A DNA stretch of 50,178 nt from Smithella sp. M82. Its GTDB lineage: Bacteria; Desulfobacterota; Syntrophia; Syntrophales; Smithellaceae. The notes below the pieces were generated by a model. The model did not search any database and was not told the origin of the DNA. It saw only the letters and a list, made by a program, of their open reading frames with translations. Of this stretch, positions 30,166-46,654 are shown one piece after another. The DNA lies in contig MAEO01000002.1 in assembly GCA_001683985.1 (NCBI GenBank), positions 1-50,178 of the forward strand, in the 5' to 3' direction. Position 1 is the stretch's first letter. Every line of letters begins with the position of its first letter. A program made the translations under genes and the position numbers.

Positions 30166-31116
30166 ATGAGTGATAACAAAAACATAGCTGTTGTTTTTCC
30201 CGGACAGGGTTCGCAAAAGCCTGGTATGGGTAAGGATTTTTGTGAGCAGATTTCTGTATGCCGTCAAACATATGAAGAAGCTGCCGATGCTCTGGGCTGG
30301 GACGTTTCTTCTATGTGTTTTGGCGAAGATGAAAGACTGAATCTTACCGAGTATACACAGCCATGTATTGTAACGACGGAAATAGCCATGTTGAAGGGTC
30401 TGTCTGAAAATTATGGATTTGCTGCTGATTATTTTGGCGGTCATTCTTTAGGAGAATTTACGGCACTTGTTGCGGCAGGAGTTATGCCTCTGGCTGATAC
30501 GGTAAAAATAGTTCAGATGCGCGGTCGTTTAATGCAGGAAGCCGTCCCGGTGGGTGTCGGCGGCATGGCGGCAGTTATTTCCGAAAACATAGATATTGAT
30601 ATGTTGAAAAAGCTGATGGATGGACTTAATGCCGGTGTTGCCAATATTAATTCCACCAATCAGGTGGTTATCAGCGGCGAGTTAACGGCGATTGACGAAA
30701 TGGAGAAAAGACTGGGGGAAAATTTCCCCGCCGGGAAATCATTCCGGTTTATTCGGTTGAATGTAAGCGCTCCGTTTCACAGCCGTTTGATGAAAACAAT
30801 TGAAGTCCGTTTTGCCGATATTCTGGAAAAATTCAGCGGCAACCTGAACGTTCGGAATGCCTCAAGAGTAACCTCAAACTTTACTGGAGGTTTTCATATG
30901 GGCAGCGGCGCCGAATTACAAAAGAATCTTGTTAATCAAATCAGCAATACCGTGAACTGGCGGGGGAATATGCAGGCGCTGGCAGAAAAAGCCGGCGAAA
31001 TTTACGAAGTCGGACCGGGAAGACCCCTGCGCGATTTTTTCAAAACGATTGGTGTAACCTGTCAATCGATTACCACACTCAGCACAGCAGAAAAAATTTT
31101 TAAAGGCGTGGATTAG
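30166..31116 (+). CDS. fabD: malonyl-CoA:ACP acyltransferase
   Basis: A 316-residue acyltransferase that loads malonyl or a similar extender from CoA onto an acyl carrier protein. FPGQGSQKPGMG (11-22) and GHSLGE (92-97, nucleophile Ser94) are diagnostic, and the catalytic histidine is in SAPFHSRLM near 203. It opens the acyl-chain cluster. Since an ordinary FabD is expected elsewhere in the genome, this copy may be dedicated to the cluster. That is an inference. Confidence 0.9.
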   Translation: MSDNKNIAVVFPGQGSQKPGMGKDFCEQISVCRQTYEEAADALGWDVSSMCFGEDERLNLTEYTQPCIVTTEIAMLKGLSENYGFAADYFGGHSLGEFTALVAAGVMPLADTVKIVQMRGRLMQEAVPVGVGGMAAVISENIDIDMLKKLMDGLNAGVANINSTNQVVISGELTAIDEMEKRLGENFPAGKSFRFIRLNVSAPFHSRLMKTIEVRFADILEKFSGNLNVRNASRVTSNFTGGFHMGSGAELQKNLVNQISNTVNWRGNMQALAEKAGEIYEVGPGRPLRDFFKTIGVTCQSITTLSTAEKIFKGVD

Positions 31117-31163
31117 TCTTTTAACATAACCGAAGCGTTTAATTCCGTGAAGGAGAAAAAGCT

Positions 31164-32606
31164 TTGAACAAAGCAGTAGATAAAATAAATCCTCTGAAAA
31201 TTCAGGATAATACTTTCCGTGACGGGCATCAGTCAATTTATGCCACAAGGATGCGGACGGAAGATATGATCCCTATCGCTGAAGAGATGGATAGCTGCGG
31301 TTTTCACGCTATGGAAGTATGGGGCGGTGCGACATTTGACACTATGCATAGATTTTTGGGTGAAGATCCCTGGATGCGTCCTAGAATTTTGAAGAAATAT
31401 ATCAAGAAAACTCCCTTTGCCATGCTCATACGGGGACAAAACCTTGTGGGTTATCGTCATTACGCCGACGATGTCGTGCGCGCTTTTGTGGATAAGGCCT
31501 GCGAAATAGGTATTGATATCTTCCGTTGCTTTGATGCTTTAAACGATTTCCGTAACATGGAATCATGTGCGGAAAGAGTTAAAGCAAATGGGAAAAATTT
31601 TCAGGGAGCATTTTGTTATTCGTTAACGGGTGTGCAACTTGGCGGGGAAGTTTATAATCTTGAATATTTTGTAAGAAAAGCAAAAGAACTGGAACAGATG
31701 GGGGCTGATGCAATTTGTATCAAAGACATGAGCGGCATTCTTTCTCCTTTCGATGCTTTTGATTTGATTTCTGCCATTAAAAAAGAAATAAAAGTTCCCT
31801 TGCATCTGCATTCTCATTACACCAGCGGAATGGCTACGATGACTTACTTAAAAGCAATAGAAGCAGGGATTGATGTTGTGGATACCTGTCTTGCGCCCTT
31901 CGCGCTGAGAACTTCCATGCCTGCAATTGAGCCGATTGTTGCTTCTCTTCGCGGAACGGAGCGCGATACGGGACTGGATTTGAACAAATTGCTTTTGCTG
32001 GGTGAACATCTCGAAAGTATAGCGCCGAAATACAATGTCCATTTGCCGACTCATAAACTTTCCATTATCGATAACGGAGTCCTCGCTCATCAGGTTCCCG
32101 GCGGCATGATTTCCAACCTGACTGGTCAGCTCAAAGAAATGAACGCGCTCGACAAGCTGGGGAAAATTTACGAAGAAGTGGCAATAACCAGAAAAGATAT
32201 GGGCTCTCCTCCTCTGGTTACTCCGGTTTCGCAGATTATCGGGGCACAGGCGGTGCTGAATGTTCTTTTCGGTCGTTATGTGCGGGTTTCCAATCAGCTC
32301 AAGGATCTGGTTCTTGGCTTATACGGTAAAACGCCGATGCCGATTGACGCGGAATTAACCAAAAAGATATTGAAAAACTATAAACGCGGGCAGGAGCCGT
32401 TATCAGGAAGGCCGGCTGATTATCTGGAACCGGAAATCGAAGCAGCGAAGAAAAAAATGGGTGACCTTGCCCGCACAGAAGAAGATGTGCTGGCCTATAT
32501 ATTATATCCTGCAACTATGGAAAAATTTCTACGATCGAAATATGGAATTGATTCTTCAAAAAGTTCGGGAGTGGAAAATATTCCTAAAAAAAAAGTAGCC
32601 GCATAA
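31164..32606 (+). CDS. biotin-dependent carboxyltransferase subunit (PycB/OadA/5S type)
   Basis: A 480-residue TIM-barrel carboxyltransferase. DNTFRDGHQS near residue 15, FRCFDALNDFRNM near 118 and the metal-binding LHLHSHYTSGMA near 216 match pyruvate carboxylase B, oxaloacetate decarboxylase alpha and transcarboxylase 5S. There is no biotinyl domain: the C-terminus ends GVENIPKKKVAA and lacks a (A/M)MKM motif. It therefore needs a separate biotin carrier, which is not in the window. TTG start with GGAG upstream. Its place between FabD and an acyl-CoA dehydrogenase suggests extender or anaplerotic supply; this is not proven. Confidence 0.85.
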   Translation: MNKAVDKINPLKIQDNTFRDGHQSIYATRMRTEDMIPIAEEMDSCGFHAMEVWGGATFDTMHRFLGEDPWMRPRILKKYIKKTPFAMLIRGQNLVGYRHYADDVVRAFVDKACEIGIDIFRCFDALNDFRNMESCAERVKANGKNFQGAFCYSLTGVQLGGEVYNLEYFVRKAKELEQMGADAICIKDMSGILSPFDAFDLISAIKKEIKVPLHLHSHYTSGMATMTYLKAIEAGIDVVDTCLAPFALRTSMPAIEPIVASLRGTERDTGLDLNKLLLLGEHLESIAPKYNVHLPTHKLSIIDNGVLAHQVPGGMISNLTGQLKEMNALDKLGKIYEEVAITRKDMGSPPLVTPVSQIIGAQAVLNVLFGRYVRVSNQLKDLVLGLYGKTPMPIDAELTKKILKNYKRGQEPLSGRPADYLEPEIEAAKKKMGDLARTEEDVLAYILYPATMEKFLRSKYGIDSSKSSGVENIPKKKVAA

Positions 32607-32718
32607 TGCAGCGGTAAGAAAATAAAACTCCTTCTTTGAAGAGATATTTTTCATTGAAAGAGTTGTTTTATAAGCTCGTCTGCAAATATAATAATAATAG
32701 AGGAGAAGGGATTGATTT

Positions 32719-33918
32719 ATGGACTTGAGTCTTAGTGAAAGTCAATTGACATACCTGGATACTGTGCGGAAGTTTGTAAAAAATGAAATAACGCCGCATA
32801 TTTTGGAACTGGAAAAAAGTCATATTTTCCCCTGGGACATCATTAACAGAGCCTGGGAAACCGGCATTCTTAATTTATGTATTCCGGAATCTGTGCAGGG
32901 TTATGAAATTGATGCAATCACGTCAGCCTTGATTATCAAAGAACTTTCCTATGGCGATACCGGAATTTCCACTTCGGCGATGTGCAATGATTTAGCCAAT
33001 GTTGTAATCAGTCTGCATGGAACTGATGAACAAAAAGAATTGTTTCTCAAACCTTTTGTCAAAAAACCTATCCTGGCTTCTTTTTGTCTGACGGAACCCA
33101 ATGCCGGTTCCGATAATTCGATGATGACCAGTTATATCAGCAAAAATAATGATGGCAATTATGTCTTAAACGGCTCCAAATGTTTTATTACCAATGCGTC
33201 TTACGCCTCTCAGTTTACAGTTCTTTGTAAAGTAGGCAAGCCGACAGGTAATTTTATAGCTTGTGTTATTGTTCCGGTCGGGCAGGTTACATCCGCTGAT
33301 ATCCCTGGCATAGGAAATGCTGCCAGAGAAATTAAAGTGCCGGCGGGTGGGAAAATAATAATCGGCAAGCCGGAAGATAAACTGGGACAGCGACTTTCCA
33401 ACACCGCCAGTGTAACTTTTGAAGATGTTATTATCCTTCCGAATCAGGTTATTGGAGACAGGCGGCTTGGTTTTAAGTATGTCATTGACGTTTTGGATTA
33501 CGCCCGACCGATGGTTGCGGCTATCGGTTTGGGACTTGCCAAAAGAGCTTTTGATGTTACGGTGTCATATACGAGGGAGCGCAAGCAGTTCGGTCACCGG
33601 TTATGCGATCTTCCCGTGGCCAGAGAAATGCTGACAACCATGTGGAAAAAAATGGAACTGGCTGAACTCGCTCTTTTAAAAGCAGTGTGCAAAATTGGAG
33701 AAAAAGCAAGTGATGCCGGAATTTATGCGTCTCTGGCGAAAAACACGGCGGCAGAAGCTGCCATCTTTTGTGCGACGGAAGGTCTTCATCTGCACGGTGG
33801 ATACGGTTTTACCGCCGAGTATGAGATTTCCAAACTGGCGCGTGATGCTCATATTATCGATATTTACGAAGGTGTCCGCGAAGTACAGAACATGATTATC
33901 GGACGGGAAATTGTTTAA
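32719..33918 (+). CDS. acyl-CoA dehydrogenase
   Basis: A 399-residue FAD enzyme. FCLTEPNAGSD near residue 117 (acyl binding and FAD), NGSKCFITNASYA near 150, RKQFGHRL near 290 and LHLHGGYGFTAEYE near 355 are family motifs. The catalytic base is Glu384 in IYEGVREVQNMIIGR. It introduces or removes a double bond next to a thioester. Within this cluster it could work as an enoyl reductase or desaturase on CoA- or ACP-bound chains; this is inference. GGAGAAGGG lies upstream of the ATG. Confidence 0.9.
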   Translation: MDLSLSESQLTYLDTVRKFVKNEITPHILELEKSHIFPWDIINRAWETGILNLCIPESVQGYEIDAITSALIIKELSYGDTGISTSAMCNDLANVVISLHGTDEQKELFLKPFVKKPILASFCLTEPNAGSDNSMMTSYISKNNDGNYVLNGSKCFITNASYASQFTVLCKVGKPTGNFIACVIVPVGQVTSADIPGIGNAAREIKVPAGGKIIIGKPEDKLGQRLSNTASVTFEDVIILPNQVIGDRRLGFKYVIDVLDYARPMVAAIGLGLAKRAFDVTVSYTRERKQFGHRLCDLPVAREMLTTMWKKMELAELALLKAVCKIGEKASDAGIYASLAKNTAAEAAIFCATEGLHLHGGYGFTAEYEISKLARDAHIIDIYEGVREVQNMIIGREIV

Positions 33919-33965
33919 TATTGAGTGAAGCGTGAGTAGTGAATAGTGAAAGGTGAAGGGGCGCA

Positions 33966-34694
33966 ATGATTGAAAAGCCGGTTGTTTTAGTTACTGGTGG
34001 TGCGACGGGAATAGGAGCGGCTTGTTGTCGCGCTTTGTCGGCGGAAGATTTTCATGTAGGCATACATTACAATAAGAGTGCCGAGAAAGCTCAAAAACTG
34101 CTTGCAGAAATAAAAGACGGATTTTTGATTCAGGCGGATCTGTCCGATATTCAACAGGTGGATGCGCTGATAGGCAAGTTGAAAGACACTGTAGGACGAG
34201 TTGATGTTCTGGTTAACAACGCCGGACAGTCGATCAACGCCGATATAATTTCCATGAAACCGGAACAATTTGATGCGCAACGCGCACTTACCAAAGGTGT
34301 CTGGTATTTAACCAAAAGAATTCTGCGTCAGTTTATGATTCGAAATTCGGCCGGGCGTATTATCAATATTTCCAGTGTCGTCGGTCATACGGGCAACGCC
34401 GGCCAGATTCCTTACACAATGGAAAAAGCGGCGCTTGATGCTTTCACCAAATCACTGGCGCGGGAACTCAAGGGAAGAAATATTCTGGTTAATTCCGTGG
34501 CTCCCGGATTCATTGATACGGAGATGACTAAAGAATTGCCGGAAGAAATTAAAAATAAAATCATGGATGAAATTATTCTGGAACGTATCGGAAAGCCTGA
34601 AGAAGTGGCGGAAGTGGTCGCTTTTCTGGCCAAAAGAGGAAGTTACATCACCGGTTCGGTGATTCACGTTAACGGAGGGCTTTATGGAGGCTGA
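33966..34694 (+). CDS. FabG-like 3-oxoacyl-ACP reductase (SDR family)
   Basis: A 242-residue short-chain dehydrogenase. The cofactor loop is TGGATGIG (10-17), NNAG is at 84-87, and the catalytic Ser136/137, Tyr150 and Lys154 (YTMEK) are complete. APGFIDTEMTKELPEE is the usual FabG substrate-loop pattern. It would reduce the 3-keto group formed by the ketosynthase. It overlaps the dehydratase gene by 11 bases and starts a tightly packed run of six genes. Confidence 0.88.
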   Translation: MIEKPVVLVTGGATGIGAACCRALSAEDFHVGIHYNKSAEKAQKLLAEIKDGFLIQADLSDIQQVDALIGKLKDTVGRVDVLVNNAGQSINADIISMKPEQFDAQRALTKGVWYLTKRILRQFMIRNSAGRIINISSVVGHTGNAGQIPYTMEKAALDAFTKSLARELKGRNILVNSVAPGFIDTEMTKELPEEIKNKIMDEIILERIGKPEEVAEVVAFLAKRGSYITGSVIHVNGGLYGG

Positions 34695-35154
34695 TGACTC
34701 TCTGAAGCAGGAAGTCCTGCAACTTGTTCCTCAGAAGGAACCTTTCCGTTTTGTTGACGAGATTATCAGCCTTGATGATGAACAGATAGTCGGGGCTTAC
34801 CGTTTTCGAGAAGATGAATATTTTTATCGCGGACATTTTCCCGGCAATCCTATTACACCGGGCGTGATTCTTATCGAAACTATGGCGCAAGTCGGGGTTG
34901 TGGCGTTTGGAATTTATCTTTTGTCACGCCAGAAAAATATGCGGCCGGGCGACATGAAATTGCCGGTAAGTCTGTTCTCTCTGGCTGATGGCGTGGAATT
35001 CAGACAAATTGTAAAGCCCGGCGAAAGAGTTATCATCAAAGCGAAAAAAATTTATTTTCGTAAAGTTACAATAAAAGCAAATGTATCGATGGAAAAGGAA
35101 AACGGTGAAATAATTTGCTTCGGAGAATTATCGGGAGTAGGAGTGGATAAATGA
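34684..35154 (+). CDS. FabZ/FabA-like 3-hydroxyacyl-ACP dehydratase
   Basis: A 156-residue hot-dog protein. YRGHFPGNPITPGVILIET contains the catalytic His51 and Glu65. It dehydrates 3-hydroxyacyl-ACP to the enoyl form. The central helix is followed by MAQVGVVAFGIY rather than the shorter FabZ pattern, so it may belong to a variant group with specialised substrates. It starts inside the reductase gene and ends inside the ketosynthase start (ATGA), implying coupled translation. Confidence 0.88.
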   Translation: MEADDSLKQEVLQLVPQKEPFRFVDEIISLDDEQIVGAYRFREDEYFYRGHFPGNPITPGVILIETMAQVGVVAFGIYLLSRQKNMRPGDMKLPVSLFSLADGVEFRQIVKPGERVIIKAKKIYFRKVTIKANVSMEKENGEIICFGELSGVGVDK

Positions 35155-36431
35155 AGAAGAGAATTGTTATCACGGGAATGGGCGTGGCGGCTCCCAATGC
35201 GCACGGTCTGGATGCTTATGAAAAAGCGCTGAGGCAAGGCATTTCGGGAATCCGTTTTGTTCCAAAATTGCAGGAATTGAATTTCGGTTGCCAGATTGCG
35301 GGTATTCCGGAAAATTTTGATGAGATACGTAAAAGTTATTTTGATCGCGAAAAACTTTTATCGTTAAACGATAACATCGGTTATGCATCGGTTGCGGCTG
35401 TTGATGCCTGGAAGGATGCCGGATTTAATGTCAACAGCGACGATGATAATGCCGTAGACTGGGATACCGGTGTCATTGCCGGCTCCGGAATCGGCGGCAT
35501 GGACACGATAGCCCATACAATAGTTCCCACGATTAATGAAGGGAGGGTAAGGCGTTTGGGCAGTCGTGTTGTCGAACAGGTAATGCACAGCGGAACCAGT
35601 GCGCGTATTTCCGGTTTGCTGGGCTTGGGCAATCAGGTGACATCAAACTCTTCGGCTTGTTCCACCGGCAATGAGGCAATTATTAACGCCCTGTGGAGGA
35701 TAAGAACGGGATTGGCCAAACGAATGATGGCTGGTGGTTCTGAAGGAGCTACCCCCTACATCTGGGGCGGTTTTGACGCCATGCGCGTGCTTTGCCGCAA
35801 ATTCAACGACAACCCGACGGCGGGTTCGCGTCCGTTGAGCGCAACAGCCGGTGGCTTTGTGCCCGGTGCGGGCAGTGGCATGATTGTTTTGGAGGAGTTG
35901 GAAACAGCGCTGGCCCGAAGCGCCAGAATCTATGCGGAAATAATCGGCGGTTATGTCAACTGCGGAGGACAGAGGATGGGCGGCTCCATGACCGCGCCCA
36001 ATCCTGAAGGAGTGAAACGATGTGTTCGCGGAGCAATAGCCGACGCCGGTATTAATACCGCGGAAGTAGATGCCATTAACGGACATTTGACGGCTACTTA
36101 TGCCGATCCTTATGAAGTGAAAAACTGGGCGGAGGCGTTGGAAAGAAATCCCGAAAGTTTTCCCTACATTCAATCCACAAAATCGCTGGTCGGCCATTGT
36201 CTGGGGGCTGCCGGCGCCTTAGAATGTGTGGCTGTTGTTTTAGAACTTTACAAAGGATTTCTGCATCCATCAATCAACAGTGAGGATGTGCATCCCGATA
36301 TCGGGCAATTTGCGCCGAAAATTCCACAAAAATGTCTGGAATTACCTGAAATGAAAATTATCGCCAAAGCAGGTTTCGGTTTTGGCGATGTCAATAGCTG
36401 CATTATTTTCAAAAAATGGGAAGGGAATTAA
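35151..36431 (+). CDS. beta-ketoacyl-ACP synthase (KAS II-like, divergent motif)
   Basis: A 426-residue condensing enzyme. The thiolase-fold site is Cys170 (NSSACSTG), His312 and His349 (KSLVGHCLGAAGA, with Lys344), so all three catalytic residues are present. Around the first histidine the sequence reads INGHLTATYADP instead of the usual HGTGT, which marks a distinct subfamily. It would extend ACP-bound chains with the extender loaded by FabD. There is no second, inactive partner subunit (chain-length factor). It is fourth from the end of the packed gene run. Confidence 0.9.
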   Translation: MKKRIVITGMGVAAPNAHGLDAYEKALRQGISGIRFVPKLQELNFGCQIAGIPENFDEIRKSYFDREKLLSLNDNIGYASVAAVDAWKDAGFNVNSDDDNAVDWDTGVIAGSGIGGMDTIAHTIVPTINEGRVRRLGSRVVEQVMHSGTSARISGLLGLGNQVTSNSSACSTGNEAIINALWRIRTGLAKRMMAGGSEGATPYIWGGFDAMRVLCRKFNDNPTAGSRPLSATAGGFVPGAGSGMIVLEELETALARSARIYAEIIGGYVNCGGQRMGGSMTAPNPEGVKRCVRGAIADAGINTAEVDAINGHLTATYADPYEVKNWAEALERNPESFPYIQSTKSLVGHCLGAAGALECVAVVLELYKGFLHPSINSEDVHPDIGQFAPKIPQKCLELPEMKIIAKAGFGFGDVNSCIIFKKWEGN

Positions 36432-36454
36432 TTTTAATAAGGAGAGTTATTTAT

Positions 36455-36703
36455 ATGGATGAAAAAAAGATTTTTGAAGAACTGGTTAACATTTTAAAAG
36501 AATATGCCAAGAATCAGGATGTTTTGGCCAAAGCCACAATGGATACGCACATTTTGAATGATTTAAAAGTGAACTCGGCTCGTTTGGTAGATATAATCAT
36601 CAAATGTGAAGATGTTTACGGCATCAGTATTGATGACGAGGAAGCTGACGTAATCAGAACAATCGGTGATGCCGTAAAAGTTATCAAACAAAAAATCGGG
36701 TAA
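36455..36703 (+). CDS. acyl carrier protein
   Basis: An 82-residue acidic helical carrier. The phosphopantetheine serine is Ser41 in LKVNSARLVDI; a D/N-S-L pattern is usual and NSARL is a variant. The start at 36455 has AAGGAG upstream; an in-frame ATG at 36416 lies inside the ketosynthase gene. The dedicated carrier sits between ketosynthase and acyltransferase, and a phosphopantetheinyl transferase ends the same run. Confidence 0.88.
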   Translation: MDEKKIFEELVNILKEYAKNQDVLAKATMDTHILNDLKVNSARLVDIIIKCEDVYGISIDDEEADVIRTIGDAVKVIKQKIG

Positions 36704-36705
36704 AA

Positions 36706-37530
36706 ATGAATAAGAAATCCAAAATATTTCTGAATCTGCAAAATTTTATAGGGCAAATTACGGTATTAGTAATTGCACCTTTATATTTTCTTGCCGCCAG
36801 GATTCTGTTTTACAGGGTAAGAGATTTGAAAGAAACCCGCCGCCGTTGTGCAGCTGAATTCAAGAAGCACAAAGGCGGATGGATTATATGCTCCAATCAT
36901 TTGACGATGATTGACTCATTTATTTTAAGTTATGCAATTTTCAGTTTAGGGCGGCACATAATTAATTATAAAAGAATGCCCTGGAACTTGCCTGAAAGAA
37001 ATAATTATAAGGATAATGTTCTACTGACGGTATTGTGTTATCTGTCCAAGTGTATTCCTGTTAATCGCGGCGGCTCTCGTGAAAAAATGAGAGAATCTCT
37101 GGAAAAATGCATTTACCTGTTGAATAACGGAGAAACCATCATGATTTTTCCGGAAGGCAGGCGCTCCCGTACCGGACGGGTTGATAGAGAAAGTTTTTCC
37201 TATGGTGTCGGACGTTTTATTAAAAATGTGGAAAATTGCAGAATAATGTGCATGTATCTGCGGGGAGACAAGCAGGAGAAGTATAGCGCCATTCCTGCCT
37301 GGGGTGAAAAGTTTTCGGTACAGATAGAAATTTTCCAACCCAAACGTGCCGAAGGGAGTGAACTTCGTATGCAGCGGGAATACTCGCGGCAGATAATTGA
37401 AAAACTTGCGCAAATGGAGGAAAATCATTTTGCCCTGCGTCGGGAACGATGTGGTGGATTTGAAGGAGCCGGCGAACGTATGGAAAAGCGGGAATTCGCG
37501 CTTTCTAAAAAAAATCCTCACAGATGCTGA
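36706..37530 (+). CDS. PlsC-like 1-acylglycerol-3-phosphate acyltransferase family protein
   Basis: A 274-residue membrane-associated acyltransferase. A hydrophobic N-terminal segment (about 15-35) is followed by NHLTMID near residue 64 (the HX4D catalytic pair) and FPEGRRSR near 149 (phosphate binding). It would move the finished acyl chain from ACP or CoA onto a glycerolipid or another hydroxyl acceptor. The last 34 residues (from about 242) are coded by DNA that also encodes the start of the next gene, so the natural end may have been extended. It starts two bases after the ACP stop. Confidence 0.85.
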   Translation: MNKKSKIFLNLQNFIGQITVLVIAPLYFLAARILFYRVRDLKETRRRCAAEFKKHKGGWIICSNHLTMIDSFILSYAIFSLGRHIINYKRMPWNLPERNNYKDNVLLTVLCYLSKCIPVNRGGSREKMRESLEKCIYLLNNGETIMIFPEGRRSRTGRVDRESFSYGVGRFIKNVENCRIMCMYLRGDKQEKYSAIPAWGEKFSVQIEIFQPKRAEGSELRMQREYSRQIIEKLAQMEENHFALRRERCGGFEGAGERMEKREFALSKKNPHRC

Positions 37531-38107
37531 AATCGAATTTGTTAAAAACGCGGAACGTTCAGATGAAGCGCTCTGGTCGTTATGGGCGAGTAAGGAAACC
37601 GCGTATAAAGTTATAAACAAGACTTATCCTGATACTTCTTTTACTCCAAGGCGATGGCAGGTTGTTTTCAATAAGTTTAAATCAGAATATGCAGAAGGGA
37701 AAGTTGAAATTGCGGGGAAAGACGGTATTTTCATCCGTCTTTTCTCCAATTCTGATTATATCCATTGTATAGGCACTGATAAACCAGAGGAATTAGATAA
37801 TATAATCTCTGGGATTGCAGTTTTGCCGGAAAAGGAAAAGAACCCGTCGCTTTTTTCGCGTCTTTGCCTTATTAAGAGTTTGACCAAACATTATTTACTG
37901 GATTTTCATCAAATAAAAATCAAAAGAATAAAGGAAAAAGGCGAGCTTCAGCCTCCACGCGCATACATTGACGGTAGAAAGACGGAGGATATTGATATCA
38001 GCTTGAGCCACGATGGCCGTTTTATCGCATATGCATTTCTTTCCATTGAGATTACCTGTCCGATGGTTCTGCGGGTATCGTCAGCCAGCATGACTTTTGC
38101 GTTTTGA
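37430..38107 (+). CDS. 4'-phosphopantetheinyl transferase
   Basis: A 225-residue Sfp/AcpS-superfamily enzyme that adds the phosphopantetheine arm to the carrier protein. VGNDVVDL (residues 4-11) and LWASKETAYKV near 54 hold the magnesium and catalytic residues; LSLSHDG near 200 is a second conserved strand. The TTG at 37430 is chosen as start because GGAGG stands nine bases before it. This makes a 101-base overlap with the acyltransferase gene, which is unusual. The last 20 residues (ITCPMVLRVSSASMTFAF) do not look native and may come from fused DNA. Confidence 0.82.
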   Translation: MPCVGNDVVDLKEPANVWKSGNSRFLKKILTDAEIEFVKNAERSDEALWSLWASKETAYKVINKTYPDTSFTPRRWQVVFNKFKSEYAEGKVEIAGKDGIFIRLFSNSDYIHCIGTDKPEELDNIISGIAVLPEKEKNPSLFSRLCLIKSLTKHYLLDFHQIKIKRIKEKGELQPPRAYIDGRKTEDIDISLSHDGRFIAYAFLSIEITCPMVLRVSSASMTFAF

Positions 38108-39778: not shown

Positions 39779-41077
39779 CTATATATGCGTTCCCATATTC
39801 AACGCATTTATGTCCATAGGAAACCCAAGCTTTGTATGAATCAATTCCCCGGCGCTGACCCTGAAAGGATGAAGGACAAGAGAAGAATCTTCCAAAGTAA
39901 AATTAAGTGAAGACAACAAATCGGCAAGATTTCTTTTGTCAGCTATTAAGCTTGCCAGAGTAAGAAGAGAACTTTCCATTGCTTCGTTTACAGGAAGAGT
40001 GACTTGATAAATTTTCTTTACCGGAAAATCCGCGGTTAAATTTTCGGGTAGAGGTGTTACAGTTAATTGTCTGCACCAGCGCAAAAATAAAGACGGATTA
40101 AGTTTGAACGCCGGAACGAAAAAGTAAAAGGGAGTCTGTGCCCAAACCTCACTTGGAGATTTGGGCAGGTTGGCCACTTTAATTAAATCGGCGTAAGTTT
40201 CCAGTTTAATGCCGCTGACTTTCACTTTCAATTGCCAGAAGGGAAGGTAAGTAATGTCGTCTTTCGTTTCTTGCCAGACTGAATATTTAACCCTGCTGAA
40301 TTTTTTACCAGACGGATCCCAGGCAGCGCGACAATTATCACAAAATACTATCAAAGCGTCTTTTTCTCCCGGCAGATCTGCTCCGCAATCAGGACAAAGC
40401 AGAGGAAGAAATTCCACGTGCCATTTTTCATCCTCAGCAGAGATAAGAGCCTGCTCTATTTCCATGTCTCTTTGCATTAGTTCAAACGGTCTTTTCAGAA
40501 TTGCATCGTAGACGCGATTATTGGCACAGTATACCGGAGTATAAATTACACTGGTAGTTTCACCTATGAATATTGCTTTATAAACACCGTCAGTGCGTTT
40601 CTGATAAGCGTTTATTATTGTTTCACTCGACTTTGAAGGAAACTTGAGAAATTTGCCTTCATGCTTATTGCTTCCCATAAATTTTAATTTCATCGCCTGA
40701 GGCCGTAATCCCAAAGAATGCGGAAACAATTTGGAATCTAGAGACAAAAAATTAATGTCAAAATACTTGTTGGAAATATCCACTCTTTTGATTGTAGAGG
40801 AAAGACTGTAGGAGAATAATGAACCATTATGTTCTACTACAATATCTTTTTCTTGAATTGTGAAAGAAAGACCCTTTATACGCCAGTATGGAATAAAATA
40901 AATGTTTTCAGGAATTCCTTCCGCGGGAGGAAGGTAAAAGCGGAAAAAATCTTCCGTTGCAAGGTAAATACGTGTGCGGCAAAATTTACACGAAAGAATA
41001 CGATCGGCTTCGTCGAGAATTATCGGCGCACCGCATTGAGGACATTGTTGTTCAATCTTAAAATTAGAGCCGTTCAC
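39779..41077 (-). CDS. zinc-ribbon protein of unknown function, partner of the SPFH protein
   Basis: A 432-residue protein with two zinc ribbons: CPQCGAP and CKFC at residues 12-33, and CPDCGAD and CDNC near 228-250. The second is followed by AAWDPSGKKF. Repeated strands with aromatic motifs (YFIPYWRIKG near 60, TYLPFWQLKV near 275) suggest two related halves. No membrane segment is visible. It begins 14 bases inside the SPFH gene. A resemblance of role to the Bacillus YdjGHI membrane complex is only a suggestion. The function is unknown. Confidence 0.75.
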   Translation of the reverse strand: MNGSNFKIEQQCPQCGAPIILDEADRILSCKFCRTRIYLATEDFFRFYLPPAEGIPENIYFIPYWRIKGLSFTIQEKDIVVEHNGSLFSYSLSSTIKRVDISNKYFDINFLSLDSKLFPHSLGLRPQAMKLKFMGSNKHEGKFLKFPSKSSETIINAYQKRTDGVYKAIFIGETTSVIYTPVYCANNRVYDAILKRPFELMQRDMEIEQALISAEDEKWHVEFLPLLCPDCGADLPGEKDALIVFCDNCRAAWDPSGKKFSRVKYSVWQETKDDITYLPFWQLKVKVSGIKLETYADLIKVANLPKSPSEVWAQTPFYFFVPAFKLNPSLFLRWCRQLTVTPLPENLTADFPVKKIYQVTLPVNEAMESSLLTLASLIADKRNLADLLSSLNFTLEDSSLVLHPFRVSAGELIHTKLGFPMDINALNMGTHI

Positions 41078-42185
41078 CGCACTGATTACAATAAATTGAA
41101 TCCGGTATATTTTCCATACCGCACTTGGAGCATTTCTTTAAAGACGGTTTCACCGTTACCGCCTTACCGCAATTGACGCAGAAATTGGCGTTAACCGGTA
41201 GATTTCTTCCGCAATAAGCACATTTATTTACGATTAACATCTGATGACCGCAAGCTGGACAGAAGCGTGATTCTTTTGGAATTGTCTGTTTGCAATCAGG
41301 ACAAATGTAAACTTCGGGAACAGCTGCAGCGGTAGAAGTGTTTTTAAAAGCTTCGGCGAGCATTCCGGGAATCATAAAACCCATTCCCAGTCCGAGTCCT
41401 GCTCCCTCTGCTGATTGCGTCTGGGATGCCGTTTCCACCGCCATTGCCGTTTTCATTTTCAGAAGTTTGTTAAGATCATCAAAAATACCCAGCCGGCTTT
41501 TATCATCTATTGCTTTTTGTACTTCCGGCGGAGGAGTAATGGAATTAATATAAAGATCGGTCAGCGCCAGACCGAATTTGCTTAAATCAATTTGAAGAGT
41601 CTTTTTCAAACCTTCGGAAAAATCATTGTACTTGCCCGGTAGGTTGAAAATAGTGTCTACTTTTTCGCCCATATAATCGTTGAAACGCGAAACGATGACA
41701 CGATTCAAATATTCTTCTATTTCTTCAGCGCTGAAAATTCCCTGTGTTCCGACCAGCGAATTGATCAGCAAAAGCGGCTGGAGAACGCGGATATTAAAAA
41801 CACCGAAAGCACGCAGACGAATCAATCCCAACTCCTTGTCGCGAAAGGCAACCGGATCGCGCGTACCCCATTTTAAATCAGTAAAAACCTTCATATTAAC
41901 AAAATAAACTTCCGCGCGCAGAGGACTGGTCATGCCCCAGGGTATGGCAATTATCTTGGTCAAAAGAGGAATATTAGCTGTTTTAAGAGTATGACGTCCC
42001 GGGCCAAAGGCGTCATAAGCTTTGCCGTTATAGAAAAAAACGGCGCACTGGCTTTCTCTGACCGTCAGCTGTGCGCCGAATTTAATTTCGCCGGAACCAT
42101 TTTGAGGAATTCTGTGTACAATTTCTTTGCCTGATTCATCAAACCATTCGATAACTTCCAAAAATATTACATTGTCTGTTCCCAT
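41064..42185 (-). CDS. SPFH-domain (YdjI / virion-core-like) protein with zinc-ribbon tail
   Basis: A 373-residue protein. Residues about 1-230 form an SPFH/band-7-like domain of the YdjI type (FLEVIEWFDESGKEIVHRIP, VRESQCAVFFYNGKA, FGPGRHTL). A glycine-rich linker follows (GLGLGMGFMIPGMLAEAF, near 270), then three zinc ribbons (CPDC/CPAC, CAYC/CVNC, CSKC/CNQC, about 296-372). SPFH proteins build membrane scaffolds or rings. It is the first gene of a two-gene operon with the zinc-ribbon protein; GGGGG precedes the ATG. The leader contains the structured element at 42213-42353. Confidence 0.82.
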   Translation of the reverse strand: MGTDNVIFLEVIEWFDESGKEIVHRIPQNGSGEIKFGAQLTVRESQCAVFFYNGKAYDAFGPGRHTLKTANIPLLTKIIAIPWGMTSPLRAEVYFVNMKVFTDLKWGTRDPVAFRDKELGLIRLRAFGVFNIRVLQPLLLINSLVGTQGIFSAEEIEEYLNRVIVSRFNDYMGEKVDTIFNLPGKYNDFSEGLKKTLQIDLSKFGLALTDLYINSITPPPEVQKAIDDKSRLGIFDDLNKLLKMKTAMAVETASQTQSAEGAGLGLGMGFMIPGMLAEAFKNTSTAAAVPEVYICPDCKQTIPKESRFCPACGHQMLIVNKCAYCGRNLPVNANFCVNCGKAVTVKPSLKKCSKCGMENIPDSIYCNQCGERL

Positions 42186-42353: not shown

Positions 42354-42473
42354 TATTAGTGGAATTAAAGTTTTGTTGACATGTTAAAATAATAAGGAAC
42401 AGGCCCCTAATAGTCAAGCACAAATGAACGAATAAAATTGATTTTTTGTGCGGCATATTATACACAATTCAGC

Positions 42474-43895
42474 ATGAAAAATACCAAATCTGTCAATCAG
42501 AATATTTATAATGGAATGGCGCTGATAGCCGATCCTATTCATCAATATATTCTGTTTACCATACCGGAAAATAAGTCAGCTGAAGAAATAACGGAACAAA
42601 CCATAATTGATTCCCCCTGGCTACAGAGATTGAGGCGGATTTATCAATTGCAAAGCGCCAGATGGGTTTATCCGGCGGCGGAACATTCGCGCTTTCAGCA
42701 TTCTCTGGGAACAATGCACATGGCCGGAGAATTCGCCAAAAGTATTTATCCAAGTCTGTTCTCTGTCTGCAAAGATGTTCCTTCCTGCAATTACGTGGAA
42801 GAGTTGCTGAGACTTGCCGGTCTGTTGCACGATGTCGGACACGGTCCCTTCGGTCATTTTTTTGATGATAATTTTTTAAGTGACTGGGAATTGACGCATG
42901 AAACAGTAGGACAGAATATCATCGTGCGGAAACTTGGTATCGATATTGCCCGCATCAAAAGAAGTCCTTCCGGCTCCTTCGCGCGCGGCGAAGTAATGGA
43001 TGCTCAAAAGGTGGCTTTTTTGATTAAGATGCCCGAAGAAGGGGAGGCGGACAAGCAGCCGCGATGGCTTCAAATGTTGAGGCAATTGTTTTCCGGTGTT
43101 TATACCGTAGATAATCTGGATTATGTCCAGCGCGACGCCTACATGACCGGTTTTTCGCTGGACATGGTGGATATTCCCCGTCTGCGTTACTACACCTTTT
43201 TTACAAAGGAGGGATTGACTCTTCATCAGTCGGGCATTTCTGCACTGGCAAGATTTTTAAACGCCCGTCTCAATTTATACACGAATGTGTATTTCCATCG
43301 TACAACGCGTGGATTGGATTTACACCTGCAGGAATTTTTCCATGACACGATGAAATTCATTATTCCGGGCAATCCTCTCGAAAATCTGGATAATTATCTG
43401 AAATGCGATGAATGGAGTTTGTTCAACCACGTGCAAAACTGGCGGGAATCTAAAGATGAAAAAAAGAGAAAACTGGCCGCCGAGTGGAAAAAGCTCCATG
43501 ACCGGGAAGTAAAATGGAAAATGTCCTTTGTTGCGGAAATTTCCCTTCATCAGATACAGCGTGGCATAGGATTTGCGCAAGCTGAGGAGTATGAAGCAAA
43601 GATAAGAAAACATCTGCCGAAAAAACTGCAAAATCTGAAATTCAAGGTTGATCTGGCCACGCAGGACCCGCGTCCGCTTAATCCTATAACCGAAAGAGAA
43701 AAAAGAGTAAATATTTTCAATCCGGTCACCCAGAAAACGTCACCGGAACCGCTTCTGGATATTTACCGTTTTATCCCTGCCCGTGTCATGCATTTCAGAG
43801 TTTTTTCATTGAATCACGATTATGACTCAGAATTATCCGCCGCCGCAGAAAAAGTGCTGGGAAGCTCCGAAAAATCAACACCGACAAATATTTGA
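42474..43895 (+). CDS. HD-domain phosphohydrolase (SAMHD1/dGTPase-like)
   Basis: A 473-residue protein with an HD metal site: HSRFQHSLGTMHMA near residue 72, LLHDVGHGPFGH near 119 and the late aspartate in DNLDYVQRD near 218. This arrangement is typical of the dNTP triphosphohydrolase/SAMHD1 branch, often annotated as HD superfamily phosphohydrolase. The C-terminal half is helical and specific to the group. The ATG at 42474 has no clear ribosome site; an in-frame ATG at 42438 is also possible. It lies directly upstream of NrdD, so both genes may act on the deoxynucleotide pool. Confidence 0.8.
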   Translation: MKNTKSVNQNIYNGMALIADPIHQYILFTIPENKSAEEITEQTIIDSPWLQRLRRIYQLQSARWVYPAAEHSRFQHSLGTMHMAGEFAKSIYPSLFSVCKDVPSCNYVEELLRLAGLLHDVGHGPFGHFFDDNFLSDWELTHETVGQNIIVRKLGIDIARIKRSPSGSFARGEVMDAQKVAFLIKMPEEGEADKQPRWLQMLRQLFSGVYTVDNLDYVQRDAYMTGFSLDMVDIPRLRYYTFFTKEGLTLHQSGISALARFLNARLNLYTNVYFHRTTRGLDLHLQEFFHDTMKFIIPGNPLENLDNYLKCDEWSLFNHVQNWRESKDEKKRKLAAEWKKLHDREVKWKMSFVAEISLHQIQRGIGFAQAEEYEAKIRKHLPKKLQNLKFKVDLATQDPRPLNPITEREKRVNIFNPVTQKTSPEPLLDIYRFIPARVMHFRVFSLNHDYDSELSAAAEKVLGSSEKSTPTNI

Positions 43896-43896
43896 T

Positions 43897-45939
43897 ATGG
43901 CTGAAAATCCTGAAACAACAGATTTGACTCTTTTTGTGCGCACCTCTGCGGAGGAAGTCGCTCCGTGGAACCGGCAGCGAATTATTGACGCTCTGGCGCG
44001 TGAAGCCGACATTGATTATCCGCTGGCCGATGAAATTTCGCGGGAAGTGGAAAGGCAGATTATTGCTGCCGGAATCGGCGTAACTACGACAGCTCTGGTG
44101 CGTGAACTGGTTAACGTACGATTGATTGAAAAAGGACTGGAGAAAGAACGCAGACTGCATGGCCGTCTGGGTTTTCCTCTTTACGATGTGCGGCAACTTA
44201 TTTTGCATCAGAACAAACAGGATGCCAACATTCCTCATTCTCCCGAAGGCACAAATCTTTTATTTGCGGAAGGCATCAAAAGAGAGCTTTCCCTTTATGA
44301 TGTTTTCTCTGCCGAAATCGGCGAGGCTCATGTTACCGGAGATATTCATATTCACGCGCTGGGTTACATTGACCGTCCTTACAGCTGCAGTCAATCGCTG
44401 GAATACCTGAAAATAGACGGATTGAAACTTCCGCATGCTATAAATTCCGCCAATCCCGCGAAATACGCCGAAGTTCTTCTGGCGCACATGGTGCGCTTCA
44501 GCGCGGTTTTGCAGGGACATTTTGCCGGCACAATCGGCTGGGATGCGGTTAATATTTCTTTTGCGCCTTATCTGACCTCCATGACGGACAGGGAAGTAAA
44601 ACAATTCGCACAGATGCTGATCTATGAATTTTCGCAACTCTCCGCCACCCGTGGCGGACAGGCTCTCTATACGGATATACACATATATTATGAAATGCCT
44701 CCTTATTGGGCAAACCTTCCAGCAATAGGCCCGGAAGGCAAAAAAACAGGAAAACCTTACGGCGCTTATGCCGGCGATGCCCAGCGCTTTGCCCGCGCAA
44801 TTCTGGAAGTGTTTGAGAAAGGTGATGCAAAAGGCAAGCCGTTTATTCTGCCGCGTCCTCTTCTGCACATCACAGAGAATATCTGGAAAGATAAAGACGC
44901 TCAGAAGTTTTTGCTGTTTGCCTGTGATGTTGCCGGCCAAATGGGCAATACCTGTTTTGTTTTTGACAGAGAAAAAAATGCGCCTGTCTCAGATTTCAGT
45001 GATGAAGAACTGGATAAGCCCTGGATTCAGCGCCGGGCCGCCATTCAAAGCGTGACGCTGAATTTGCCGAGACTTGGTTACAAGGCCGAAGGTGATGAAA
45101 AGAAATTATTCACGTTGCTGAGTGAATTTATAGAGAAAGCGGCACAAGCTCACGTGCAGAAGAAAGATTTTATGGAAAAACTTCTTTCTTATGCTGAAGA
45201 CGGACCTCTCGCGGTATTGGCCATGAATCACGACGGATTTCCCTTCTTAAGAATGAAAGTGGCCGGCTATGTTATCGGTATTGCGGGTTTGAATGAACTG
45301 GCGCAAATCCATAAAGGAAGCGAACTGCATCAGTCAAACGAAGCGCTCGAGTTCGGCCTGAAAGTTGTGGATTATATTAAACGCGAGGCCGACCGTCTGA
45401 GTAAAGAATTAAAAATGAATATTGTTCTCGGTCAGTCGCTGGCCGAAACAACAGCTTATCGTTTAGCCCGTCTTGATTTAAGATATTATTCTCCCGTTGC
45501 CGGGCGTTATGTAAAAGGTAATATCGCCGAAGGAGCTGTTTATTACACCAATCCAACGCAAATTAATGTCGCGGCTGAGATTACTCCGTTGCGAAGAGTT
45601 ATATTGGAAGGGCTCTTTCATAAATACCTCAAAGGAGATGTGTTTACACACATTCAGTTGGGAGGTTCAAATCCTGGTAAAGAAAAAATAAGCGAATTTA
45701 TCCGCAGCGTTTTTAATGATTCCATAAACCGTCAAATCGATTTTAATCCGGAATTCACCTTCTGCCTGACCTGCGAAAAAACGTCCAGAGGCCTGCACGA
45801 AAAATGCACTTACTGCGGTTCTGCCGATGTCGAAGGCATCGCCCGTCTGACGAAATACTTCAGCAAAGTTTCCGGCTGGAACAAAGGAAAAATTGCCGAA
45901 CTGAAAAACAGAAAGATAAATGGTAGTTTTGATAAATAA
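43897..45939 (+). CDS. nrdD: anaerobic ribonucleoside-triphosphate reductase (NrdD-like)
   Basis: About 680 residues. It has an N-terminal ATP-cone (about 10-100), the signature DIHIHALGYIDRPYSCSQSL, then the ten-stranded barrel with NTCFVFDRE and TLNLPRLGY. A C-terminal zinc site follows (FCLTCEKTSRG, KCTYCG). Reduces NTPs without oxygen. Where other members have the glycyl-radical glycine (R-V-T-G-Y-F), this one reads RLTKYFSKVSGW; the lysine codon AAA is at 45853-45855. No activase gene (nrdG) lies nearby. The start at 43897 follows the HD gene by one base; an ATG at 43822 would overlap it by 74 bases. Confidence 0.85.
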   Translation: MAENPETTDLTLFVRTSAEEVAPWNRQRIIDALAREADIDYPLADEISREVERQIIAAGIGVTTTALVRELVNVRLIEKGLEKERRLHGRLGFPLYDVRQLILHQNKQDANIPHSPEGTNLLFAEGIKRELSLYDVFSAEIGEAHVTGDIHIHALGYIDRPYSCSQSLEYLKIDGLKLPHAINSANPAKYAEVLLAHMVRFSAVLQGHFAGTIGWDAVNISFAPYLTSMTDREVKQFAQMLIYEFSQLSATRGGQALYTDIHIYYEMPPYWANLPAIGPEGKKTGKPYGAYAGDAQRFARAILEVFEKGDAKGKPFILPRPLLHITENIWKDKDAQKFLLFACDVAGQMGNTCFVFDREKNAPVSDFSDEELDKPWIQRRAAIQSVTLNLPRLGYKAEGDEKKLFTLLSEFIEKAAQAHVQKKDFMEKLLSYAEDGPLAVLAMNHDGFPFLRMKVAGYVIGIAGLNELAQIHKGSELHQSNEALEFGLKVVDYIKREADRLSKELKMNIVLGQSLAETTAYRLARLDLRYYSPVAGRYVKGNIAEGAVYYTNPTQINVAAEITPLRRVILEGLFHKYLKGDVFTHIQLGGSNPGKEKISEFIRSVFNDSINRQIDFNPEFTFCLTCEKTSRGLHEKCTYCGSADVEGIARLTKYFSKVSGWNKGKIAELKNRKINGSFDK

Positions 45940-46067: not shown

Positions 46068-46442
46068 TTATTTTTTTGGAAAATATTTTACTTTGTTCAA
46101 ATTTTTAAAATCTGAATCTTGAGTCCATATAGTTGCGTCATATTCTTTTGCAGTTGCAATGATAATGCTATCAGCCATCGGGATGCCATTTTCCAAGCTT
46201 ATTTTTGAGGCTGAAATAGCCAATGAACTCGTCAAATCCACGACAGAACCTTTCCGCATCGCAACAACTGCCTGTAAGGCTTCATCCTCTCCAGATTCTC
46301 GAAGGACTACCTTAAAGACCTCATAAATAGTGACCGTCGGGACAACAAGTGACGCCGTGTCTTTTAAGGGGGTGAGAAAGTGTTTAGCGTTTGGCTCATC
46401 AGCAAAATATGCAAGCCAACCTGAAGAATCGACAATATTCAT
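46068..46442 (-). CDS. vapC: VapC-type PIN-domain toxin (cassette gene)
   Basis: A 124-residue PIN ribonuclease. The four acidic metal ligands are in place: Asp5, Glu41, Asp91 and Asp109. VapC toxins cut tRNA or rRNA and are held inactive by VapB. The start overlaps the VapB stop by four bases. It shares a cassette with its antitoxin, the usual form of toxin-antitoxin cargo in integrons, where it can stabilise the array. Confidence 0.9.
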   Translation of the reverse strand: MNIVDSSGWLAYFADEPNAKHFLTPLKDTASLVVPTVTIYEVFKVVLRESGEDEALQAVVAMRKGSVVDLTSSLAISASKISLENGIPMADSIIIATAKEYDATIWTQDSDFKNLNKVKYFPKK

Positions 46443-46645
46443 ACTCTGTCTTCCTCTCGTTCGAATTCCGTATTTATCCCCTTGATAAAACCACGCAGTT
46501 CTTTAATGTCTTTTTCTGGGATAAGTTCAATTCGACCATTGTATTCTACTACTTGCATTTTTTGGCCTGGACGTATCTGCAGTGCCTGCCTGACTGCTTT
46601 TGGTATAACAACTTGAAATTTAGGTGATACGGTTACAGTTTGCAT
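46439..46645 (-). CDS. vapB: VapB-type AbrB/SpoVT antitoxin (cassette gene)
   Basis: A 68-residue antitoxin. The AbrB-fold DNA-binding part (TVSPKFQVVIPKAVRQAL, residues 4-21, then GQKMQVVEYNGRIELIP) is followed by a short tail that should bind VapC. GGAG eight bases before the ATG supports the start. VapB represses its own promoter; the palindromes just upstream are the likely operator. Confidence 0.9.
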   Translation of the reverse strand: MQTVTVSPKFQVVIPKAVRQALQIRPGQKMQVVEYNGRIELIPEKDIKELRGFIKGINTEFEREEDRV

Positions 46646-46654
46646 AACAAAAAC

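Follow-up and report, generated by a model that had tools for sequence, protein, structure and literature searches.

The window, that is the whole 50,178-nt stretch of Smithella sp. M82 DNA that was analysed, contains a frame open from 43822 to 45939 (705 aa) that encodes a class III ribonucleotide reductase (RNR)-like protein. Its likely start is the ATG at 43897-43899, which gives a protein of 680 aa. The stop codon of an HD-domain gene lies 1 nt before this ATG. The features of the two genes are as follows, with residues numbered on the 705-aa ORF.

42438..43895 (+): HD-domain phosphohydrolase, SAMHD1/dGTPase-like, H...HD...D motifs intact (PF01966, E=1.5e-12)
43897..45939 (+): class III RNR-like protein, candidate pseudo-NrdD (PF13597 NRDD, E=1.7e-110, 370.8 bits)
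43933..44139 (+): degenerate ATP-cone-like N-terminal domain (PF03477, E=0.001, 20 bits, gathering score 25.8)
44221..44229 (+): equivalent of the NxN flap, here D-A-N with the first Asn changed (alignment with relatives)
44347..44358 (+): HxHD triphosphate-recognition motif, here HIHA, with both His kept and Asp lost (alignment with relatives)
44383..44385 (+): Ser188, replacing the first-strand catalytic (barrel) Cys, Cys171 of P. copri NrdD (alignment with relatives)
44968..45021 (+): shortened finger loop, 18 aa vs 28, without the SECCRL thiyl-Cys motif (alignment with relatives)
45445..45447 (+): Glu542, equivalent of the substrate-bridging Glu581, retained (85/85 Gly-less, 36/36 intact relatives)
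45763..45816 (+): four-Cys zinc site C648, C651, C662, C665 (CCCC in every aligned subfamily member)
45853..45858 (+): Lys678 (codon AAA, 45853-45855), followed by the conserved Tyr679

The NrdD-like protein scores 315.5 bits against TIGR02487, the NCBIfam NrdD equivalog, just under the cut-off of 326.35. Its ATP-cone is weakly recognisable, with PF03477 under the gathering score. The AlphaFold2 model (pLDDT 80, below 50 at the tip of the radical loop and in the finger loop) matches class III RNR structures in Foldseek with E~1e-24, the best match being 8p2s (E 4.4e-24). The protein resembles the class III NrdD structures of P. copri, T4, T. maritima and S. thermophilus in its 10-stranded barrel, C4 zinc site and WNxGK tail, and also in the nucleotide network formed by HxH, NxN, Glu and Tyr.

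The usual hallmark of a glycyl-radical enzyme is its glycine, which in active NrdD lies in an RxxGY motif near the C-terminus. The window protein has K678 at this position. An earlier note, made from the sequence alone, had pointed to a lysine at the expected radical glycine, and the HMMER alignment bears this out: K678 falls on the radical glycine in the structures 8p23 and 4coi (PDB), with the conserved Tyr and the xxWNxGK tail beside it. The note's further point that a single read error does not explain the AAA codon also holds, as K, Q or R occupies the site in many independent assemblies, named Smithella genomes being among the relatives with K or R. For the same reason, the chance of a sequencing, assembly or codon-recoding artefact at the glycine codon is negligible.

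The subfamily was represented by 154 members aligned over at least 600 residues, taken from related genomes and fetched loci. The reference set of intact proteins consists of 36 members from other orders of the phylum, all of which have the first-strand Cys, the SECCRL motif and the Gly (36/36). The analysed set of Gly-less proteins has 85 members, including one from outside Syntrophales, L162. The radical site is occupied by Q in 44 of them, K in 29, R in 8, N in 2, and L and P in one each; thus Q, K or R account for 81/85 proteins, and the residue is never acidic. Smithellaceae have K, other Syntrophales have Q, R, N, L or P. Syntrophales also has 31 members that still bear the Gly, and these are eroded as well: the HxHD Asp is changed to N in 17, the Cys is lost in 9, and the SECCRL motif is altered.

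The glycine is not the only catalytic residue that differs between the sets. The first-strand barrel Cys is present in all 36 intact relatives and in none of the 85 Gly-less proteins. The finger loop of the window protein, REKNAPVSDFSDEELDKP, is 10 residues shorter, Cys-free, and contains no SECCRL, SCCR or MGCR; in the Gly-less set, CCR is kept in 5/85 proteins and the loop is Cys-free in 26. The Asp of HxHD is found in 36/36 intact and 2/85 Gly-less proteins. On the other hand, both histidines of the latter motif (HxH) are kept in 85/85 Gly-less proteins, the second Asn of NxN in 81/85, and the Tyr that contacts the nucleotide (Tyr712 of P. copri NrdD) in 84/85. The first position of NxN is variable in the Gly-less set (N in 56, D in 18, S in 9), compared to N/N in all 36 intact relatives. 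HxH, Glu581, Tyr712 and the second Asn of NxN are nucleotide contacts in P. copri NrdD (PMC11226230).

Class III chemistry as known is impossible without the Gly, the thiyl Cys and the barrel Cys. Unlike class III NrdD, the window protein has neither these three nor the HxHD Asp, and no adjacent nrdG. Inactivity was among the options named in the earlier note, and the combined loss of the Gly, the barrel Cys, the thiyl-Cys/finger-loop motif and the HxHD Asp strongly supports it: judging by these residues, the protein is almost certainly inactive as a reductase. The retained contact residues suggest that nucleotide binding remains, and the protein quite probably binds nucleotides.

One alternative is that the protein is still a ribonucleotide reductase that has its radical at a different site or receives it from outside. 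The fold, the zinc site and the substrate contacts are retained, and T. maritima NrdD demonstrates that unexpected active-site geometry is possible (PMC4493059). However, even the T. maritima enzyme retains SCCR, and its C329A/C330A substitutions abolish activity (PMC4493059). In the Gly-less proteins the barrel Cys is lost in 85/85, and the thiyl motif is lost in most of them and wholly in the window. No invariant Gly or Cys replaces them. The candidate radical glycines SGW, VEGI and NKGK are either unconserved or equally frequent in normal enzymes. The use of another glycine, proposed in the earlier note, thus finds no candidate: only NKGK is conserved, and equally so in normal enzymes, whereas SGW, considered there as the possible radical glycine, occurs in 64% of the Gly-less proteins and 6% of the intact ones. 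The same note had suggested a subfamily with a different radical site; the subfamily exists, as a Syntrophales clade, and the different radical site does not, there being no conserved replacement Gly or Cys. Together with the canonical NrdD and NrdG2 encoded in the same genome (see below), this makes continued reductase activity very unlikely. A separately encoded spare part that provides the radical was also considered and rejected. The short C-terminal copies in genomes G019, G021, G031 and G033 all carry K and hence are unable to supply it.

These copies are of two kinds. In G031 (L049:5001-5426, minus strand) the gene is cut in frame to a 142-aa ORF, still behind the HD gene, in which an N-terminal part is joined to the last 52 residues of the NrdD-like protein. 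The other three genomes contain stand-alone K-type C-terminal tails in frames of 45-72 aa: L050:4911-5126 (G019), L051:9905-10117 (G033) and L052:4980-5114 (G021).

In the IQ-TREE PMSF tree of 61 members, constructed with the trait columns removed and L073 left out, all 28 sampled Gly-less Syntrophales proteins are on one side of a branch with SH-aLRT 99. This tree requires two changes of the Gly in all, the second being L162. The same count of two is given by a FastTree tree of 159 rows, which comes with a long-branch warning and an unstable placement of L073. The second lineage is represented by L162 and L168 (genomes G276 and G248; family f66, outside Syntrophales), where Gly is separately replaced by Asn in the motif RITNYMSK; in G276, whose genome is 79% complete, no canonical NrdD was found. 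The direction of the change is loss, because all outgroup NrdDs have Gly. On these trees Gly was lost once in the ancestor of a well-supported clade of Syntrophales, and independently in the second lineage.

The Gly-less proteins are well conserved. Pairwise dN/dS values of Smithella orthologues are 0.05-0.13 for the NrdD-like protein, 0.03-0.04 for the canonical NrdD and 0.05-0.14 for the HD protein. By this measure the NrdD-like protein is under purifying selection. Conservation reaches 97% or more in 149 columns of the Gly-less alignment, and certain new residues are near-fixed there: N287H in 84/85 proteins, K225R in 85/85 and Q273L in 81/85. This pattern speaks for a new function more than for drift, though the gene has been deleted in a few lineages. 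A decaying pseudogene or non-functional remnant could account for those relatives whose copies are deleted or only fragments (L049, L050-L052) and for the absence of the gene from a few genomes. However, given full-length ORFs across many families with dN/dS of about 0.1, the conserved columns, and the new clade-specific residues, it is highly improbable.

With catalytic residues lost, the zinc site and nucleotide contacts kept, and low dN/dS, the protein is best explained as a retained pseudo-reductase: a class III RNR that was once active, lost its catalytic machinery in Syntrophales, and has been kept as a nucleotide-binding pseudoenzyme. We assign this reading a probability of roughly 0.6. 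The ancestral form, with the Cys, SECCRL and Gly and beside nrdG2, is found elsewhere in the phylum; along with the Gly, the clade has lost the barrel Cys, the HxHD Asp and the thiyl motif, with zinc and nucleotide contacts staying.

The SECCRL NrdDs of other Desulfobacterota (L112-L141, L150-L156) belong to the same subfamily as the window protein and share its domain order and its N-terminal TTD motif; four sampled ones are 51-56% identical to it. Unlike the window protein, they keep every catalytic residue and have nrdG2 adjoining. Nearly all of the 36 intact relatives outside Syntrophales adjoin nrdG (nrdG2). Among the Syntrophales loci no nrdG adjoins the NrdD-like gene, the exception being L061, with a canonical pair a few kb away. 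The earlier note's remark that no nrdG is near is correct for the window and fails for the genome as a whole. The latter encodes a second, canonical NrdD with SMCCRL and Gly (contig C160:32721-34793), adjacent to an NrdG2 that scores over its cut-off. No large subunit of a class I or II RNR was found in this genome.

Outside the order, the subfamily gene is the sole NrdD in 13 genomes tested outside f66, and it occurs together with the canonical NF006126 NrdD in only 1 of 120 phylum-wide genomes (p~2e-17, kinship being ignored). In Syntrophales the two coexist, and all seven tested genomes of the order that keep the subfamily gene have a second NrdD. This distribution fits a scenario, inferred as to its sequence of events, in which a second reductase allowed the older one to give up catalysis. 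The subfamily would then form a natural series, with the working enzyme of other Desulfobacterota at one end, the Gly-less pseudoenzyme at the other, and the partly eroded forms that still bear Gly between them. Stepwise loss of Gly in an otherwise conserved protein makes it a test case for an RNR turning into a regulator. It would also mean that in many Syntrophales these genes are misannotated when they are called functional anaerobic RNRs.

The HD protein shares its sequence family and motifs with the HD dNTPases SAMHD1, EF1143 (2o6i) and CloA of the Clover system, and is a putative dNTPase. Its PDB matches are 2hek, 2o6i, 9mr6 and SAMHD1, and its metal motif aligns with that of 2o6i. Among 107 full-length HD homologues the HD and D motifs are present in all and the H motif in 101. 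Its score against TIGR01353 is 28.7 bits (cut-off 152). PADLOC, run in search of a defence system, gave only a weak dGTPase match for the HD protein (25.9 bits) and none for the NrdD-like protein, and this candidate was rejected. Candidate HD-NrdD fusions, open frames of 968-1190 aa, proved to be overlapping reading frames, because the HD homology sits in another frame.

The HD gene is directly upstream of the NrdD-like gene in most Syntrophales loci from many families, and the two genes are probably co-transcribed. Measured from the HD stop to the conserved start motif of NrdD, the median spacing is 16 nt for the Gly-less loci (76 loci) and 107 nt for the Gly-bearing ones (20 loci); as the genomes are related, the significance of this difference is only indicative. 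Adjacency is already present in many Gly-bearing Syntrophales members, so that adjacency alone is no proof of a regulatory role. Homologues of HD also occur outside Syntrophales, where they lie at different places or on different contigs.

In the Syntrophus-type genomes (f19, e.g. L157) the Gly-less protein is kept and no HD match was found at 1e-60, which argues against an obligate partnership with HD. Several other genomes keep the HD gene without the NrdD-like gene. Both observations favour another possibility, namely that the pseudo-reductase is kept for a role unrelated to HD, e.g. in buffering nucleotides or in partnering or regulating the canonical NrdD/NrdG2, and the HD linkage is incidental. 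On the other hand, many families have HD immediately upstream in most of their loci, with tighter spacing in the Gly-less ones. In addition, the protein is only ~25% identical to the canonical NrdD, so that hetero-dimers are not obvious. We consider an HD-unrelated role unlikely, though a serious competitor.

As side observations, the Syntrophales NrdDs of L088-L094 (f2, genera g8/g42) bear Gly, have SECCN or SECG motifs and adjoin no HD, and HD is present elsewhere in several of these genomes. G020, a MAG with 99% completeness, has HD, and no NRDD-domain protein was found in it, canonical NrdD included.

Returning to a retained nucleotide-binding pseudoenzyme, the most economical partner for it is the dNTPase-like HD protein, and a regulatory link between the two can be proposed tentatively. 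The protein would neither make nor use a radical and would still bind (d)NTPs, be it in the former active site, the specificity site or the cone. The bound nucleotide could then affect the dNTP supply, most likely via the HD hydrolase, by direct contact or by nucleotide buffering. Active NrdD has a switch that responds to nucleotides and is made up of the glycyl-radical domain, the flap and the cone (PMC11226230). The pseudoenzyme could keep this switch; the Lys, Gln or Arg at the loop tip may fill or contact the vacated cavity. In its full form, somewhat more doubtful than the link as such, the proposal is an order-wide module of dNTP homeostasis in which a dead class III reductase with Lys, Gln or Arg in the active site serves as a nucleotide sensor controlling a SAMHD1-like dNTPase. 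The Syntrophales genes would thus be linked to a probable dNTP-degrading partner.

There are partial parallels. The cytomegalovirus R1 homologues UL45 and M45 have the fold of the RNR large subunit, have lost reductase activity and have been repurposed (PMC5469499). They are inactive RNR homologues, as the protein described here almost certainly is, but are class I, viral and act in host signalling, and their loss is of unrelated origin. Clover contains a bacterial dNTPase controlled by a partner gene (PMC12265719); that partner, CloB, is an active Pol-beta nucleotidyltransferase, whereas the partner of HD here is an NRDD-domain pseudo-RNR. In the open literature (most subscription papers being outside the scope) we found no inactive class III homologue, no NrdD with Syntrophus and no dGTPase with anaerobic RNR.

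A phage origin was considered and rejected, the phage-collection matches listed being ordinary NrdDs with less than 30% identity. Eight relatives come from viral contigs; Gly is kept in 6/6 with a readable C-terminus, the remaining two being L211 and L216.

Just after the NrdD-like gene (46068-46650, minus strand) there is a short PIN/VapC-like ORF with an AbrB/VapB-like frame upstream, probably a toxin-antitoxin pair by sequence similarity. Divergently from the HD gene (39779-42185, minus strand) lie genes for an SPFH/Band 7 protein with double zinc ribbons and a zinc-ribbon protein. Further away (30166-38107, plus strand) is a run of FabD-, carboxyltransferase-, acyl-CoA dehydrogenase-, FabG-, FabZ-, KAS-, ACP-, acyltransferase- and PPTase-like genes, which, judged by eye, is possibly a lipid or polyketide-like cluster.
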